The notes under the pieces were generated by a model that saw only the letters and a program-made list of their open reading frames with translations, was not told the DNA's origin and searched no databases. Both the position numbers and the translations under genes were made by a program. Positions 29,115 to 44,551 of a DNA stretch of 55,648 bases are shown in pieces; the stretch's first letter is position 1, and each line of letters starts with the position of its first letter. The stretch covers positions 1 to 55,648 of the forward strand of contig JAFIGC010000021.1 of assembly GCA_020831635.1 (NCBI GenBank), given 5' to 3'. Source of the stretch: Verrucomicrobiota bacterium (GTDB lineage: Bacteria; Verrucomicrobiota; Kiritimatiellia; SS1-B-03-39; UBA6053).

Positions 29115-29265
29115 CGGGGCCTGTCCCCGTTTCCGACTTATCGGGGTCTGTCCCCGTTTTTTCCGCGGCATCTGCCGGGGCCTGTCCCCGTTTCCGACTA
29201 AATTTCGGGGTCTGTCCCCGTTTTTCCGCGGCATCGGCATCTGCCGGTGCCGGGGCCTGTCCCCG
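29115..29265. repeat. REP cluster: five CGGGGYCTGTCCCCG palindromes
   Basis: Copies lie at 29115-29129, 29142-29156, 29176-29190, 29206-29220 and 29251-29265, all in one orientation, alternating CCTGT and TCTGT in the centre. Two flank types alternate (TTTCCGACT and TTTTTTCCGCGGCATC). The cluster fills the gap between convergent genes, a classical REP location, and begins 8 bases past the purC stop. Confidence 0.9.
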
Positions 29266-31795: not shown

Positions 31796-32809
31796 TCAAG
31801 TACTCCCGGCGGGCATATTCAAAACGATCAGGCCCAAGGCTTCATCCACTTCCCCCGGCTTGATTTCGCGTTTCAAGTGATTGCGCTCTCGATGCTGTTT
31901 TGCGAAACCTTCTACGAAAATCCGGGTTCCCAGCACCATTCCCGTGCTCAAATAGTGCAAGCGGAGTTTCATCTGCTTGCCGAGGGGTGTTTTCCCTCTC
32001 ATCTTTAACACCGCATTCACCTCTTCATCCGAAAGGGACGCACGCGTCTCCGCCTTTTTCCCCGGCCGATAAGCGCCCTCCACAAAGAGTGCCACTCGAT
32101 ACGCTTCCAATGCTTTGCCCGGTTGTTCCGAAAGATTCTCATGCCCCAACAACTCGAACAAACGTTTGAAGCCAAACATTGACCGTGGGTCGCCCCCCGC
32201 GTTCATGCCATACCCACAATACCGGTACTTCGCCGGATCCCGGCTCAACCCGGCGCGTACCGGATTTAAATCAATGTAAGAGGCAACTTTCAACAGAATG
32301 CCGGGCACTTCTTGGACAACCGTACTGTGAAACCGTTCCTCCCAAAGCGGTCCCTTCCGTTCATGCCGTTCGTTGTAATCCTGACTGATCCGCTGTTTGA
32401 AATCTTTCACAAAAGCGCTCAAATCATACATGCGGGAACGAACGGCCTCGCATTTTTCATGCATGCGAGGCAAATCCCCCGAACGCCGCAATCGATCGAT
32501 TTCCCACAAAAATTGAGCACCGCGGGATCTTTTGCAAGTAGGCTTGCCGGGCAAATAATCCAAACGCCTTGCCAACTCCTTTTCATCCAGCGATTTACAG
32601 GAAGGTTTGGACGGCACTTCGACCAACAAATGGAAGTGATTTCCCATGATCGCATGCGTCAGCACCGTGATCCCGGCAAAGTCCGCAAGTTGATACAGCC
32701 AAATGCGGATGCGTTCCTTTTCGGTTTCATCGAAAATCAGTTTCCGTTCAATCACACGCGAAGTGACGTGATACACGCCTCCCTCCCGCAGAATTCTTGC
32801 TTTTCTCAT
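31796..32809 (-). CDS. REP-associated tyrosine transposase (RAYT, Y1/HUH family)
   Basis: The 337-residue protein is a Transposase_17-type HUH enzyme. GGVYHVTSRVI is the opening strand, GNHFHLLVEVP near 60-70 is the HUH metal-binding motif, and the catalytic tyrosine is expected in the helix VKDFKQRISQDYNERHERKGPLW. EERFHS and YIDLNPVRAGL are family blocks. RAYTs cut and join single-stranded REP palindromes and occur as single domesticated copies rather than as an IS with ends. The C-terminal 110 residues are an extension with further basic helices. The ATG at 32809 has GGAG upstream; MELCLM at 32824 does not. REP copies lie upstream at 32928-33010 and elsewhere in the window, as expected for its substrate. 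Confidence 0.92.
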   Translation of the reverse strand: MRKARILREGGVYHVTSRVIERKLIFDETEKERIRIWLYQLADFAGITVLTHAIMGNHFHLLVEVPSKPSCKSLDEKELARRLDYLPGKPTCKRSRGAQFLWEIDRLRRSGDLPRMHEKCEAVRSRMYDLSAFVKDFKQRISQDYNERHERKGPLWEERFHSTVVQEVPGILLKVASYIDLNPVRAGLSRDPAKYRYCGYGMNAGGDPRSMFGFKRLFELLGHENLSEQPGKALEAYRVALFVEGAYRPGKKAETRASLSDEEVNAVLKMRGKTPLGKQMKLRLHYLSTGMVLGTRIFVEGFAKQHRERNHLKREIKPGEVDEALGLIVLNMPAGST

Positions 32810-32927
32810 CAGACACAGCTCCATTCAAGGGTTTCATGGATCACCCAAAACGGCAATCCTTACCCCCATACACCCAACAGAAACCTGATTTTCCGCGATT
32901 TTCAGAAAAAAAAATCCGAAAAAAAAC

Positions 32928-33010
32928 GGGGACAGGCCCCGAACATCCATTTTCGATTTTCGGGGCCTGTCCCCGTTTATCATCCGCAAGTGAGCGGGGT
33001 CTGTCCCCGT
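32928..33010. repeat. REP cluster upstream of the RAYT gene (three copies, one inverted)
   Basis: CGGGGACAGGCCCCG at 32928-32942 is in inverse orientation to CGGGGCCTGTCCCCG at 32962-32976 and CGGGGTCTGTCCCCG at 32996-33010. The opposed pair is BIME-like. The last copy touches the stop codon of the algH-type gene. The cluster is 118 bases upstream of the RAYT start. Confidence 0.9.
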
Positions 33011-37220: not shown

Positions 37221-37756
37221 GCGAGTCCTTTCCGGGTGGCCAACATCCACGCGACCATGGTTTTGGCATCGGGCAATTCGTTTTCCTCCATGGCCCCCCT
37301 GAGTTCCGCGTCACTGAATTCCACCACCTCGACCCGTTCATCGTGGTCCAGGCGATTTGCGCCGGGATCGGCGGAAATTTCAGCGAAATACAGGTATACG
37401 GTTTCGTCGGTGTATCCGGGCGAAGCAAAGGCCCGGCCCAAGGGAATCAATTTTTCAACGAGGTGACCGGTTTCTTCCTCCAGTTCCCTGCGGATCGCGG
37501 CCTCCGGTTCTTCGCCGGGTTCTCTCATGCCGGCGACGATTTCGGTTACCTCGCAGTCCACGGCTTTGCGGAATTGGCGGACAAGCACCCAAGTGCCACA
37601 GGGTTTTCGGGCCAATGCGCCCACCCCGCCGGCGTGCCGGACGATGTCGCGTTTGCTGTGGCTCCCGTCTCCGAGGCGCACGTCCTGCCGTTCGACGCGA
37701 AAAACGAAACCCTCCAGCAGGGTTTCGGATGTCAATGTGGTTTCATATAGGCTCAT
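37217..37756 (-). CDS. Nudix hydrolase, ADP-ribose pyrophosphatase-like
   Basis: The 179-residue protein has a complete Nudix box GMREPGEEPEAAIRRELEEETG, with the catalytic glutamates in REL-EEE-TG. The preceding GGVGALARKPCGTWVLVRQFRKAV and later GRAFASPGYTDETVYLYFAEI fit the ADP-sugar pyrophosphatase group (NudF-like). It cleaves ADP-ribose or related sugars to AMP and sugar phosphate. The start overlaps the ligase stop by ATGA and the stop overlaps the helicase start by ATGA. Confidence 0.93.
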   Translation of the reverse strand: MSLYETTLTSETLLEGFVFRVERQDVRLGDGSHSKRDIVRHAGGVGALARKPCGTWVLVRQFRKAVDCEVTEIVAGMREPGEEPEAAIRRELEEETGHLVEKLIPLGRAFASPGYTDETVYLYFAEISADPGANRLDHDERVEVVEFSDAELRGAMEENELPDAKTMVAWMLATRKGLA

Positions 37757-39246
37757 GCGGGCTTATTGCCACAAAGTTCGTCGGAAAGCAAACGCCGATC
37801 CGGTTTGAGTCCGGCGGATTCCGGCAATTCACGAAATTCGACGGGAATCATGTACCCGGGCAAAAATTTCCGCAGGGCCTGTCCCCATACGCCGGGCGTG
37901 AAATCTGTTTTGGGCAAATCCAGCCAGGCCACGGGACGATGCCCGAATTCGGGATCGGGTTTGGGCGTGACCACCACGGTACTGGCCCCGGTAATTTCAA
38001 GAAGATGGCGTTCGATTTCCTCGGGTTGGATATTTTCGCCCCCGGAAATGAAACGATTGTCTTTGCGTCCGGTGACCACGAGGTGTTGGTTTTCCAGTTT
38101 GCCAAGATCACCGGTATGATACCATCCTTCGTCATCCACAATGGGGACGATTTCACCTTCCTGGTAGAGACCCAACGCCAGGGTGTGTCCCCGCACCAGA
38201 ATTTCTCCGTCGGGGGCCATGCGAATGTTTCGGTGGGGCAGAATCATGCCATCTGTTTCACGGCGCAAGTCCGGATCGTCATTCCGGGCCACCGTGGTGA
38301 CTTGTGAGGCGGTTTCGGTCATACCATAGGTGGCGTGCACTGGAAATCCATGGTCCAGGGCGCGGGCCACCAAATCCCGGGGAATCGGCGCGCCCCCCAA
38401 AAGAATGGTGTGAAGCTGTTTGGCCAACTCGGCGGCCTTCTCGTGTCGCATGAGTCGAATCAACTGGGTCGGCACCAGAGAGAGGTGGGTAACCCGATTT
38501 TCGAGCATCGTCCGTACGGGGTCTGTCCCCGTTTTCGTCGTCGTCTTTTCGGGGCCTGTCCCCGTTTTTTCCAGAGGTTTTTCGGGGCCTGTCCCCGTTT
38601 CGGAGACCACCGCCGCGCCGGCGAGCAGGCACCGGAAAAGCACGCCGATCCCGCCGACATGGTACAGCGGGAGGGTGAGAATCCAACGATGGGTGTGGTT
38701 GAGGGGTAAATGGCGGTTGGCGCCCAAGGCGGAATAATAATGGGCTTCGAGGCTGTGGACCACGGCTTTGGGATGGCCACTGCTCCCGGTGGTGTAAATG
38801 CAAGTGGCGGGGCGTTCTAAATCGAGCTCCAACGGGCCGCGGTCGGGCGCACCCAACATGGTGACGTCACAAAGATTGGAAATCCGAAAGCAGGGAATCC
38901 CTGGCAAAATGGGCTCGGCGGTGTCGTCAATGATTTGCAGTTTCGGGGACAGGCCCCGTGCGCGTTCCTTCAATGTGGCCTGGGGCAGCCGGGTATTCAG
39001 GGGACAGGCCACGGCGCCGGCGCGGAAAATTGCAAACAACAAAGGCAACCAACGCCACTGGGTGGCGGCGGCAATGACCACGCGATCGCCCGGCTGTATC
39101 TTCGCGTCTTGAGTGAATTGACGATGGATATCGCGGGCGGCCACGTTCATCGCCGGAAACATGTGCGCGGTGCCGTCCTCAAACCAAGCGGGCTGTTGGG
39201 GGGCAATGTGGGCGATGTCCTGCAAAGGACAACGGATGGTGCTCAT
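37753..39246 (-). CDS. AMP-forming acyl-CoA synthetase, MenE (o-succinylbenzoate-CoA ligase)-like, with REP insertion
   Basis: The 497-residue enzyme has the ANL motifs YTTGSSGHPKAVVHS (A3, near 151), YGMTETASQ (A5), GWYHTGDLG (A7), GRKDNRFISGGENIQPEEIE (A8) and the C-terminal PVEFRELPES...LKPDRR with the catalytic Lys region. MenE in menaquinone synthesis is the closest match, but no other men gene is near. Residues 216-245 (ETGTGPEKPLEKTGTGPEK and TTTKTGTDP) are translated from three tandem REP units (38517-38597), and RGLSP at 97-101 from a fourth (38944-38958). The start at 39246 overlaps the mgtE stop (ATGA). Activity despite the insert is plausible because it falls in a surface loop between motifs. 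Confidence 0.85.
   Translation of the reverse strand: MSTIRCPLQDIAHIAPQQPAWFEDGTAHMFPAMNVAARDIHRQFTQDAKIQPGDRVVIAAATQWRWLPLLFAIFRAGAVACPLNTRLPQATLKERARGLSPKLQIIDDTAEPILPGIPCFRISNLCDVTMLGAPDRGPLELDLERPATCIYTTGSSGHPKAVVHSLEAHYYSALGANRHLPLNHTHRWILTLPLYHVGGIGVLFRCLLAGAAVVSETGTGPEKPLEKTGTGPEKTTTKTGTDPVRTMLENRVTHLSLVPTQLIRLMRHEKAAELAKQLHTILLGGAPIPRDLVARALDHGFPVHATYGMTETASQVTTVARNDDPDLRRETDGMILPHRNIRMAPDGEILVRGHTLALGLYQEGEIVPIVDDEGWYHTGDLGKLENQHLVVTGRKDNRFISGGENIQPEEIERHLLEITGASTVVVTPKPDPEFGHRPVAWLDLPKTDFTPGVWGQALRKFLPGYMIPVEFRELPESAGLKPDRRLLSDELCGNKPA
38517..38597. repeat. Three REP units inside the MenE-like gene
   Basis: CGGGGTCTGTCCCCG at 38517-38531, CGGGGCCTGTCCCCG at 38550-38564 and again at 38583-38597, spaced exactly 33 bases apart. 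Each unit plus spacer (33 bases, 11 codons) keeps the frame of the ligase on the minus strand, giving an 11-residue protein repeat (TGTGPEK plus linker). Confidence 0.93.
38944..38958. repeat. Single REP unit inside the MenE-like gene, inverse orientation
   Basis: CGGGGACAGGCCCCG on the plus strand reads CGG GGC CTG TCC CCG in the ligase frame (residues RGLSP, 97-101). It is an exact unit match and opposite in orientation to the triple insert. Confidence 0.75.
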
Positions 39247-43126: not shown

Positions 43127-44551
43127 ATGTCCGACCCCGTCTCCATCCCCCTCAACCCCCTCAAAAACGAGCCCATCTCCCGATTGGTGCGGCAAATTTC
43201 CACGCCCGTGAGCATCGGCATGTTTTTTCAAACCATGTACAATGTGGTGGATACTTGGGCGGCGGGACGGCTTTCCACCGAGGCCCTGGCCGCCCTCACC
43301 GCCTCGTTTCCTGTGTTTTTCCTCATCATCGCCGTCGCCCACGGCTGTCAAGCGGCTGCCAGCGCCCTCATCAGCCACGCCTTGGGAGCGGATGACGAAG
43401 AAACCGCCCGCGAATTGGCGGGACAAAGCCTGTTTTTCGCGACGTGGATGAGCCTGGCAGTGGGTGCCATCGGTTGGGGCCTGTCCCCGCAATTGTTCGA
43501 CTGGCTGGGGATCGTCGGCGAGACCCGCGAGCTGGGCATTCAATACGTGCGCACCATCTTTTGGGCCACGCCCTGCTTTGTCATCGGGGGCACTTTTCAT
43601 GCCATGCTCAGCGCCCGCGGCAATACCCGCCCTTTCCGCAACGCCCTGATCGCGGGATTTTTTCTCAACATCATTTTCGACCTCTGGTTCGTGTTCGGCG
43701 GATGGGGCCTGTCCCCGATGGGATTCGCGGGAATCGCCCGGGCCACGGTCCTCATCCAAATGGGCGTGCTCTTGTATTATTGGTACATGGCCGTGAAGGC
43801 GGGCTTCATTCCCCCCAGCGGATTCGCGCACTTGCACCCCCGCTGGCGGGCGCAGCGCCGGCTGATGGGACAGGGATTTCCGGCCCTGCTCAACATGCTC
43901 ACCATCGCGGCGGGCATTTTCATCCACACCCATTTCGCCGGAAAAGTGGGCACCGAAGTCCTCGCCGCCTTCGGCACCGGCATGAGAATCGAGCAAATCG
44001 CCCTCCTGCCCATCATCGGACTCAACACCGCCGCCATGACCTTGGCCGGCCACAGCTATGGGGCCGGACGTTTGGACCGCTTGCGCGAAACCGTTTTCGT
44101 TTGCATGCGCACCGGCACCGTCCTCTACCTGATCGGCGCCCCCATTGTCGCCGGTTTCGCCCCCTTTTGGATGAGCCGATTCTCCCAAGACCCCGAAGTC
44201 ATCGCCATCGGCGCCACCTTCCTGCGCTTTGCCATGGCCACCATGTATTCCTTCGTCATCCTCTTTATCTCCACCTCCGTTTTACAGGGACTTCAACGCC
44301 CGCACTTCGCCATTTGGTTGGGACTCTACCGACAATTTCTGGCCCCGTTGCTGCTCATCCCCATTCTCATGGCCCGCTTCGAGCGTCCCGAAATCGGCAT
44401 CTGGTGGGGCGTGCTCATTTCCACATGGTCCGGAGCCCTCATCGCCGCCCTCTTCCTCATGTGGACCTGGCGGAGCCTGAAAAAAGAATTCGCTGGAAAA
44501 AATGAAAAAATCGCGGAAAATCCGGAACTCATTGGGTGTAAGGAGGCATGA
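43127..44551 (+). CDS. MATE-family multidrug/toxin efflux transporter
   Basis: The 474-residue protein has about 12 transmembrane helices and two homologous halves. The MATE pattern is clear in STPVSIGMFFQTMYNVVDTWAAGRLSTEALAALTASFPVF and in the second half in EVLAAFGTGMRIEQIALLPIIGLNTAAMTLAGHSYGAG. It probably exports cationic drugs with Na+ or H+. A long open frame reaching back to 41909 precedes the true ATG at 43127 and is a shadow of ctaA. Two identical 15-base REP-core segments at 43475 and 43703 each encode WGLSP. The stop overlaps the DUF2851 start (ATGA). Confidence 0.94.
   Translation: MSDPVSIPLNPLKNEPISRLVRQISTPVSIGMFFQTMYNVVDTWAAGRLSTEALAALTASFPVFFLIIAVAHGCQAAASALISHALGADDEETARELAGQSLFFATWMSLAVGAIGWGLSPQLFDWLGIVGETRELGIQYVRTIFWATPCFVIGGTFHAMLSARGNTRPFRNALIAGFFLNIIFDLWFVFGGWGLSPMGFAGIARATVLIQMGVLLYYWYMAVKAGFIPPSGFAHLHPRWRAQRRLMGQGFPALLNMLTIAAGIFIHTHFAGKVGTEVLAAFGTGMRIEQIALLPIIGLNTAAMTLAGHSYGAGRLDRLRETVFVCMRTGTVLYLIGAPIVAGFAPFWMSRFSQDPEVIAIGATFLRFAMATMYSFVILFISTSVLQGLQRPHFAIWLGLYRQFLAPLLLIPILMARFERPEIGIWWGVLISTWSGALIAALFLMWTWRSLKKEFAGKNEKIAENPELIGCKEA
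43475..43717. repeat. Two identical REP-core 15-mers in the MATE gene
   Basis: TGGGGCCTGTCCCCG occurs at 43475-43489 and 43703-43717, in the same frame (W-G-L-S-P). It matches the REP unit in 14 of 15 bases. The two copies lie in topologically comparable loop ends of the first half of the transporter. Confidence 0.7.

Follow-up and report, generated by a model that had tools for sequence, protein, structure and literature searches.

The gene considered here encodes a menE-like ligase and carries palindromic REP units within its reading frame, which raises the questions of how such a repeat can enter the coding sequence of an enzyme and whether this gene is an exception among the places where the repeat is found. 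To our knowledge, the mechanism of REP movement is unsettled and these repeats are treated as intergenic passengers. In the genome studied here most copies are genic, and a sister species and congeners are available to polarise the events, which allows the movement step to be followed at the level of single bases. The window (the whole stretch of DNA analysed) comprises 55,648 nucleotides from a Verrucomicrobiota bacterium (source genome, G000), and it was compared with a sister species (G003), two congeners (G002 and G004) and more distant members of the family.

Repeat units in the menE-like gene

The features of the gene are the following:

37753..39246, minus strand: menE-like o-succinylbenzoate-CoA ligase gene (vitamin K2 pathway), which carries the repeats; ATG at 39246-39244
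38583..38597, plus strand: REP unit A, exact core, one of two inserted units, TGTGPEK in the minus-strand reading; missing in G002 and G004
38550..38564, plus strand: REP unit B, exact core, TGTGPEK; the array of G003 is one unit shorter (two units 33 bp apart)
38517..38531, plus strand: REP unit C (T type), TGTDPVR over ancestral GRDP/GQDP (codon alignment with G003, G002 and G004)
38944..38958, minus strand: single in-place unit, RGLSP over ancestral RRLDP; exact core common to G003, no indel relative to G002 and G004
37873..37887, plus strand: near-match, 13-mer core with one mismatch (two in the 15-mer), encoding WGQAL

By comparison of sequences, the host is a real menE-like ligase gene. 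It has orthologs in 11 of the 11 family genomes, scores 154.9 bits with the AMP-binding domain PF00501, and reaches 329.2 bits with the menE model TIGR01923 (cut-off 330.15) in two stretches, the better of which starts at residue 242, after most of the insert. Relative to the sister ortholog, dN is 0.061 and dS 0.482 (dN/dS about 0.13). Translation probably begins at the ATG at 39246-39244, a codon that overlaps the stop of the mgtE-like gene upstream.

The original prediction had described three units at 33-bp spacing that encode a peptide repeat in frame, and this description is accurate: all three are exact copies of CGGGG(T/C)CTGTCCCCG, with starts 33 bp apart (33, 33), and they read TGTGPEK, TGTGPEK and TGTDPVR. 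The unit at 38517 is CGGGGTCTGTCCCCG, those at 38550 and 38583 are CGGGGCCTGTCCCCG, and the unit at 38944 lies in the reverse orientation. The 15-mer pattern with up to two mismatches is found 30 times in the window, against 1.06 matches expected from shuffles. The near-match at 37873-37887 reads WGQAL, opposite WEQAL in the sister and WNRSL in a congener in the protein alignment, and could be a precursor or a decayed site.

The sister ortholog (90% protein identity) has two array units instead of three, and PXAS01000203.1 (PVC group bacterium T3Sed10_216) contains the same menE ortholog as G003. The congeners (56-61% identity in menE) have no array units, with GQDP and GRDP opposite the GTDP of unit C. 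From FRC to THL, G004 has 31 residues, G003 has 42 and the source genome has 52, a net gain of 11 residues in the sister and 21 in the source genome. The in-frame insertion that had been proposed is thus real, at less than the 30 residues first given: because the third unit (GTDP) overlies the ancestral GRDP/GQDP, the net insertion relative to the repeat-free congeners is 21. The fourth unit (38944-38958) is exact and codes RGLSP, as had been noted, but it is not inserted sequence, since it lies over the ancestral RRLDP with the length unchanged.

It had also been argued that the insert derives from the repeat, a claim that would fall if close homologs without REPs carried the same residues. 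Neither G002 and G004 nor the seven more distant family members have them, and because exact cores are numerous here and in the sister and number 0-3 elsewhere in the family, the insert is confined to genomes that bear the repeat family. Its position is also the expected one: residues 216-242 of the ligase (27 residues) align opposite 4 residues of E. coli MenE 6nj0, and from this alignment to a solved MenE the insert appears to fall at a short stretch or loop of other MenE proteins. Most likely, it has no function of its own. An AlphaFold2 model of the ligase (four-row alignment) had a mean pLDDT of 33 and was not used.

A predominantly intragenic family

The repeat family is defined by the core CGGGGYCTGTCCCCG, which together with T-rich flanks extends over about 23 bp and forms a palindrome whose 5-bp arms (CGGGG/CCCCG) enclose a loop that is conserved and asymmetric (Y at position 5, T at position 9). 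The source genome contains 92 exact 13-mer cores, against 2 for a reversed-pattern control, at a density of about 15 per Mb. There are 67 in the sister and 0-3 in nine other family members (three each in G002 and G004), with 0-2 for the reversed-pattern control.

Genic status was called from the flanks of all 92 sites with a custom 3-periodic coding model; the source assembly is fragmented (308 contigs). About 73 of the 92 cores (~79%) are intragenic, in all six phases, which is not the predominantly intergenic location expected of an extragenic REP. The same method, applied with smaller training sets to five other genomes of the class that share the core, called only 21 of 79 sampled sites genic (Fisher p 4e-12), so the intragenic majority is a property of the lineage and not of the motif. 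The view of menE as an exception in an extragenic family is therefore not supported, and the larger finding is that menE is typical of the hosts of this repeat.

Among the other host ORFs, 41 of 49 have Pfam domains. They include genes for repair, recombination and helicase functions (a DinG/XPD-like helicase with four cores, Mfd, photolyase, DNA polymerase I (polA), methylpurine-DNA glycosylase, a SNF2 helicase and XerD), as well as ComEC, seryl-tRNA synthetase (serS), an RsmB-type methyltransferase, a porphobilinogen deaminase/HemD fusion, RibD, type III pantothenate kinase, TamB, MatE, isochorismate synthase and others (Pfam). The repair and recombination hosts (L009, L015, L031, L075, L081, L099 and L110) echo a remark made in 2013 on REPs in repair genes. 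Two core-bearing genes belong to menaquinone synthesis, the isochorismate synthase gene (L109:907-2958; G000:C262:47154) and menE in the window, which may be a coincidence.

Two genomes of another family of the same class (G090 and G188; L234-L251) have 94 and 76 cores, mostly with A at the free position (GGGGACTGTCCCC) and mainly outside genes in the sampled stretches; this is a separate expansion of the same core. A gene of G002 (G002:C473 and G002:C520; L145, L147) is 82-84% identical to its counterpart in the source genome (G000:C184; L100), where 55-65% is usual, and has a core at the same place; no G003 ortholog of it was found. It reflects either transfer or mis-binned contigs.

Acquisition without change of length

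Genic segments were aligned with the sister and the two congeners. Of the sites that could be compared, 33 of 48 relative to G002 and 41 of 56 relative to G004 (~70%) have no indel within 15 nt of the core. Change is raised at positions -5 to -1, 4 to 8 (the loop) and 13 to 17, so that about 23 bp, the core together with its T-rich flanks, are involved. The match to the REP flank consensus is 0.49-0.51 in the source genome, 0.31-0.34 in the outgroups and 0.21-0.31 at shifted control positions, and solo genic cores show the same flank profile as the arrays, less sharply. Because the arms of the core stand at background divergence from the outgroups, the target sites must already have partly matched the core. 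Where both outgroups agree, change per core position is 0.31 against a background of about 0.25, a small excess. Most copies were thus acquired without length change, at sites that were already partly core-like.

In the helicase, two adjacent cores turned RSLP...RNLAP into RGLSP...RGLSP with no change of length, and other in-place examples are RELTP to RGLSP and, in seryl-tRNA synthetase, WGAPNE to WGQAPE. A few sites are native in the outgroups, with little or no residue change (polA GRGQAP, xerD ERGLSP and acetyl-CoA hydrolase LRGLSP). Two in-place units lie in another gene of the window:

43475..43489, plus strand: in-place unit in the MatE-family transporter gene, GWGLSP over ancestral GWFSAP
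43703..43717, plus strand: second in-place unit in the same gene, GGWGLSP over GGFGLP

These two cores are 228 bp apart, and both are present in the sister and neither in the congeners. Among the sites compared between the sisters, no clean gain after their split was found.

Arrays, clusters and conservation between the sisters

Five genes carry arrays made up of one in-place unit and further units that were added, usually 33-35 bp apart, with the total length in frame. The counts here and in the sister, which the assembly of this fragmented genome may affect, are 3 and 2 in menE, 5 and 2 in a flavin amine oxidoreductase gene (C82), 3 and 4 in an HTH regulator (C52), 1 and 3 in ComEC (C167) and 1 and 2 in a DNA glycosylase (C176). 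Array copy number therefore varies between the sisters, whereas single in-place cores are mostly common to both. In the ComEC-like gene of the source genome (L095:2-2179; G000:C167:4259) an in-frame RGQAPKN array has one exact and one degenerate unit, and in that of the sister (L069; G003:C269) there are three exact units at 33 bp.

The usual period of the arrays is 33 bp. In C82 the steps are 34, 34, 35 and 35 and the frame is kept only in their sum of 138 bp; these steps, and an intergenic array with a 34-bp period (32927/32961/32995), speak against selection for keeping the frame as the general cause of the 33-bp period. The menE array did not grow by plain tandem duplication, because the linkers differ between units. 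Cores are also grouped over longer distances: of 64 genic clusters, 22 lie within 1 kb of another (1.35 expected), and 10 genes have at least two separate clusters, against 0.4 in simulations (maximum 5 in 5000 runs).

At 52 in-place sites compared between the sisters, the twelve fixed core positions differ by 3.0% (19/624), the free position by 19% and the flanks by 15-16%, so that core divergence is about five times below that of the flanks. The sites were picked as exact in the source genome, which brings the fair expectation for the core to about half the flank rate, and even so the observed value falls well short of it. This points to either selection on the motif or re-homogenisation of the copies.

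Two transposases associated with the repeat

The window also contains a transposase gene with units close to it:

31799..32824, minus strand: RAYT/TIRYT-type, IS200-like single-strand Y1 transposase; PF01797 at 40 bits (cut-off 23); 81% ortholog only in G003
32927..33009, no single strand: three units directly upstream of the transposase, an inverted pair (32927 minus, 32961 plus) and 32995 plus
29115..29265, plus strand: five-unit intergenic array on the far side of the transposase region

The sister (C297) keeps the transposase and the inverted pair at the same place. Directly upstream of a second RAYT (G000:C232; G003:C114), which shares about 50% identity with the first, lie T-type units. 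The RAYTs of other family members reach at most about 49% identity over short stretches and at most 42% over long ones, so close forms of the two RAYT-type transposases, each accompanied by matching units upstream, are limited to the two species rich in repeats. Every core contains GGGGACAG, which fits the GGGGWSAS terminal-repeat motif of TIRYT genes. GTAG at the foot of the hairpin, as in the GTAG-type REP superfamily, was not found; the flanks are T-rich and then have C before the core and G after it.

How the repeat may have spread

Our favoured, as yet unproven, explanation is that the repeat is the REP/TIR-type palindrome of the two RAYT/TIRYT-type Y1 transposases and that near-matching DNA was probably overwritten with it by templated copying. 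The transposase would release short REP single strands, or local template switching at a nearby unit would produce them; at the replication fork they would pair through microhomology with near-matching DNA and be copied in, replacing sequence instead of inserting it. Such in-place edits would give only a pentapeptide change and survive, since none of the six frames of the core contains a stop codon. Arrays would grow afterwards by addition of units, those out of frame being lost. Copying of a REP strand onto near-matching DNA would explain the flank signal, the local clustering and the tie to the RAYT genes. In experiments, short single strands are known to replace sequence with no change of length, a process named short-patch double illegitimate recombination (SPDIR). 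More tentatively, the palindrome, linked to its transposase, may spread by overwriting near-matching coding DNA in a length-neutral way, a natural recombineering-like process by which a mobile repeat would edit proteins throughout a genome and insert nothing.

Four points weigh against copying. None of the sites is a clean gain since the sisters diverged, so that no copying event was seen directly; the small excess of change in the core (0.31 versus about 0.25) could also be produced by point mutation in a few steps; the core is more conserved than its flanks (0.030 versus 0.15), unlike the pure decay of inert copies; and the window transposase scores 64.7 bits with the NCBIfam model of REP-associated tyrosine transposases (NF047646), below its cut-off of 80.

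The main rival, which we regard as unlikely though worth weighing, is drive or selection at the level of the motif, in which the 13-bp core with AT-rich flanks would be a recognised DNA signal (uptake-sequence-like or a chromosome-organising site), created by point mutations at near-match sites and kept by biased recombination or selection. The in-place, mostly coding location at pre-adapted sites agrees with it, as do the roughly five-fold lower divergence of the core, which the free position does not share, and the excess of cores with up to one mismatch (181 against 50 for the control, beside 92 against 2 exact ones); a precedent is given by the uptake sequences of H. influenzae, of which 65% lie in ORFs and for which mismatched forms are expected (PMC1939737). 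It is less easily reconciled with strong clustering within genes in place of spread, with only 15 copies per Mb, with the tandem arrays and direct association with RAYT genes, and with abundance only in genomes that have the two RAYTs. The asymmetry of the loop is also unlike a dimer site, and a symmetric protein-binding palindrome was disfavoured on this account.

Ordinary REP insertion, as in Rickettsia palindromic elements, would leave surviving in-frame units, the in-place appearance then resulting from compensating deletions or loose alignment. This is true of the added units of the five arrays (11 residues in the menE of the sister, 21 here) and has a known precedent (PMC3733652), but as an account of the family it is improbable, since some 70% of the comparable sites have no indel within 15 nt relative to two outgroups and it is hard to credit that deletions restored the exact length at dozens of sites. 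Chance occurrence of common peptides (RGLSP, RGQAP and others) in GC-rich genes, which the sites native in the outgroups might suggest, has a negligible probability as a general explanation and is refuted by the 0-3 exact cores of relatives of like gene content and the 2 of the reversed-pattern control.

If templated copying in place is true, a selfish repeat alters proteins genome-wide without frameshifts, and RAYT-type systems would act by replacement as well as insertion. By this unproven mechanism, a mobile DNA repeat would have been rewriting working proteins, in most cases through the replacement of about 20 bases with gene length unchanged and in a few genes through in-frame arrays.

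Comparison with known systems

Like Rickettsia palindromic elements, the present repeat is palindromic and translated inside functional genes; those elements are described as insertions, some of them longer, and the contrast is one of description only. We know of no length-neutral replacement among them. The DNA uptake sequences of Pasteurellaceae and Neisseriaceae (PMC1939737) are likewise short in-place motifs, often in coding DNA, but they have hundreds to thousands of copies, are non-palindromic and have neither a transposase nor tandem arrays, whereas the present core occurs at about 15 per Mb, locally clustered and beside RAYT genes, and does not qualify as an uptake sequence.

A literature search on the core strings returned no paper, and no report of a mostly intragenic REP family or of length-neutral acquisition was found in the literature searched, outside which many subscription papers fall. 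The closest likeness is to the REPs and TIRs of RAYT/TIRYT genes (REPtrons and TIRtrons; PMC3733652, PMC8266576), which also occur singly, in inverted pairs and in clusters next to a Y1 transposase gene; in the published descriptions those families lie mostly between genes and their intragenic units are insertions, whereas the present one is about 79% intragenic and mostly length-neutral. Intragenic REPs, including those of the PVC bacterium Opitutus terrae and those in DNA repair genes, were reported in 2013 together with TIRs of the GGGGWSAS type (PMC3733652). As in O. terrae, many genes are affected here, repair genes among them, and arrays encode extra residues. The REPs of O. terrae and other species are, however, described as inserts, more than half of which encode 20-30 residues, whereas those described here mostly cause in-place pentapeptide changes, and unlike the 2013 cases the events were polarised with a sister species and two congeners. 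In this comparison, the intragenic majority and the length-neutral acquisition of the repeat look new.
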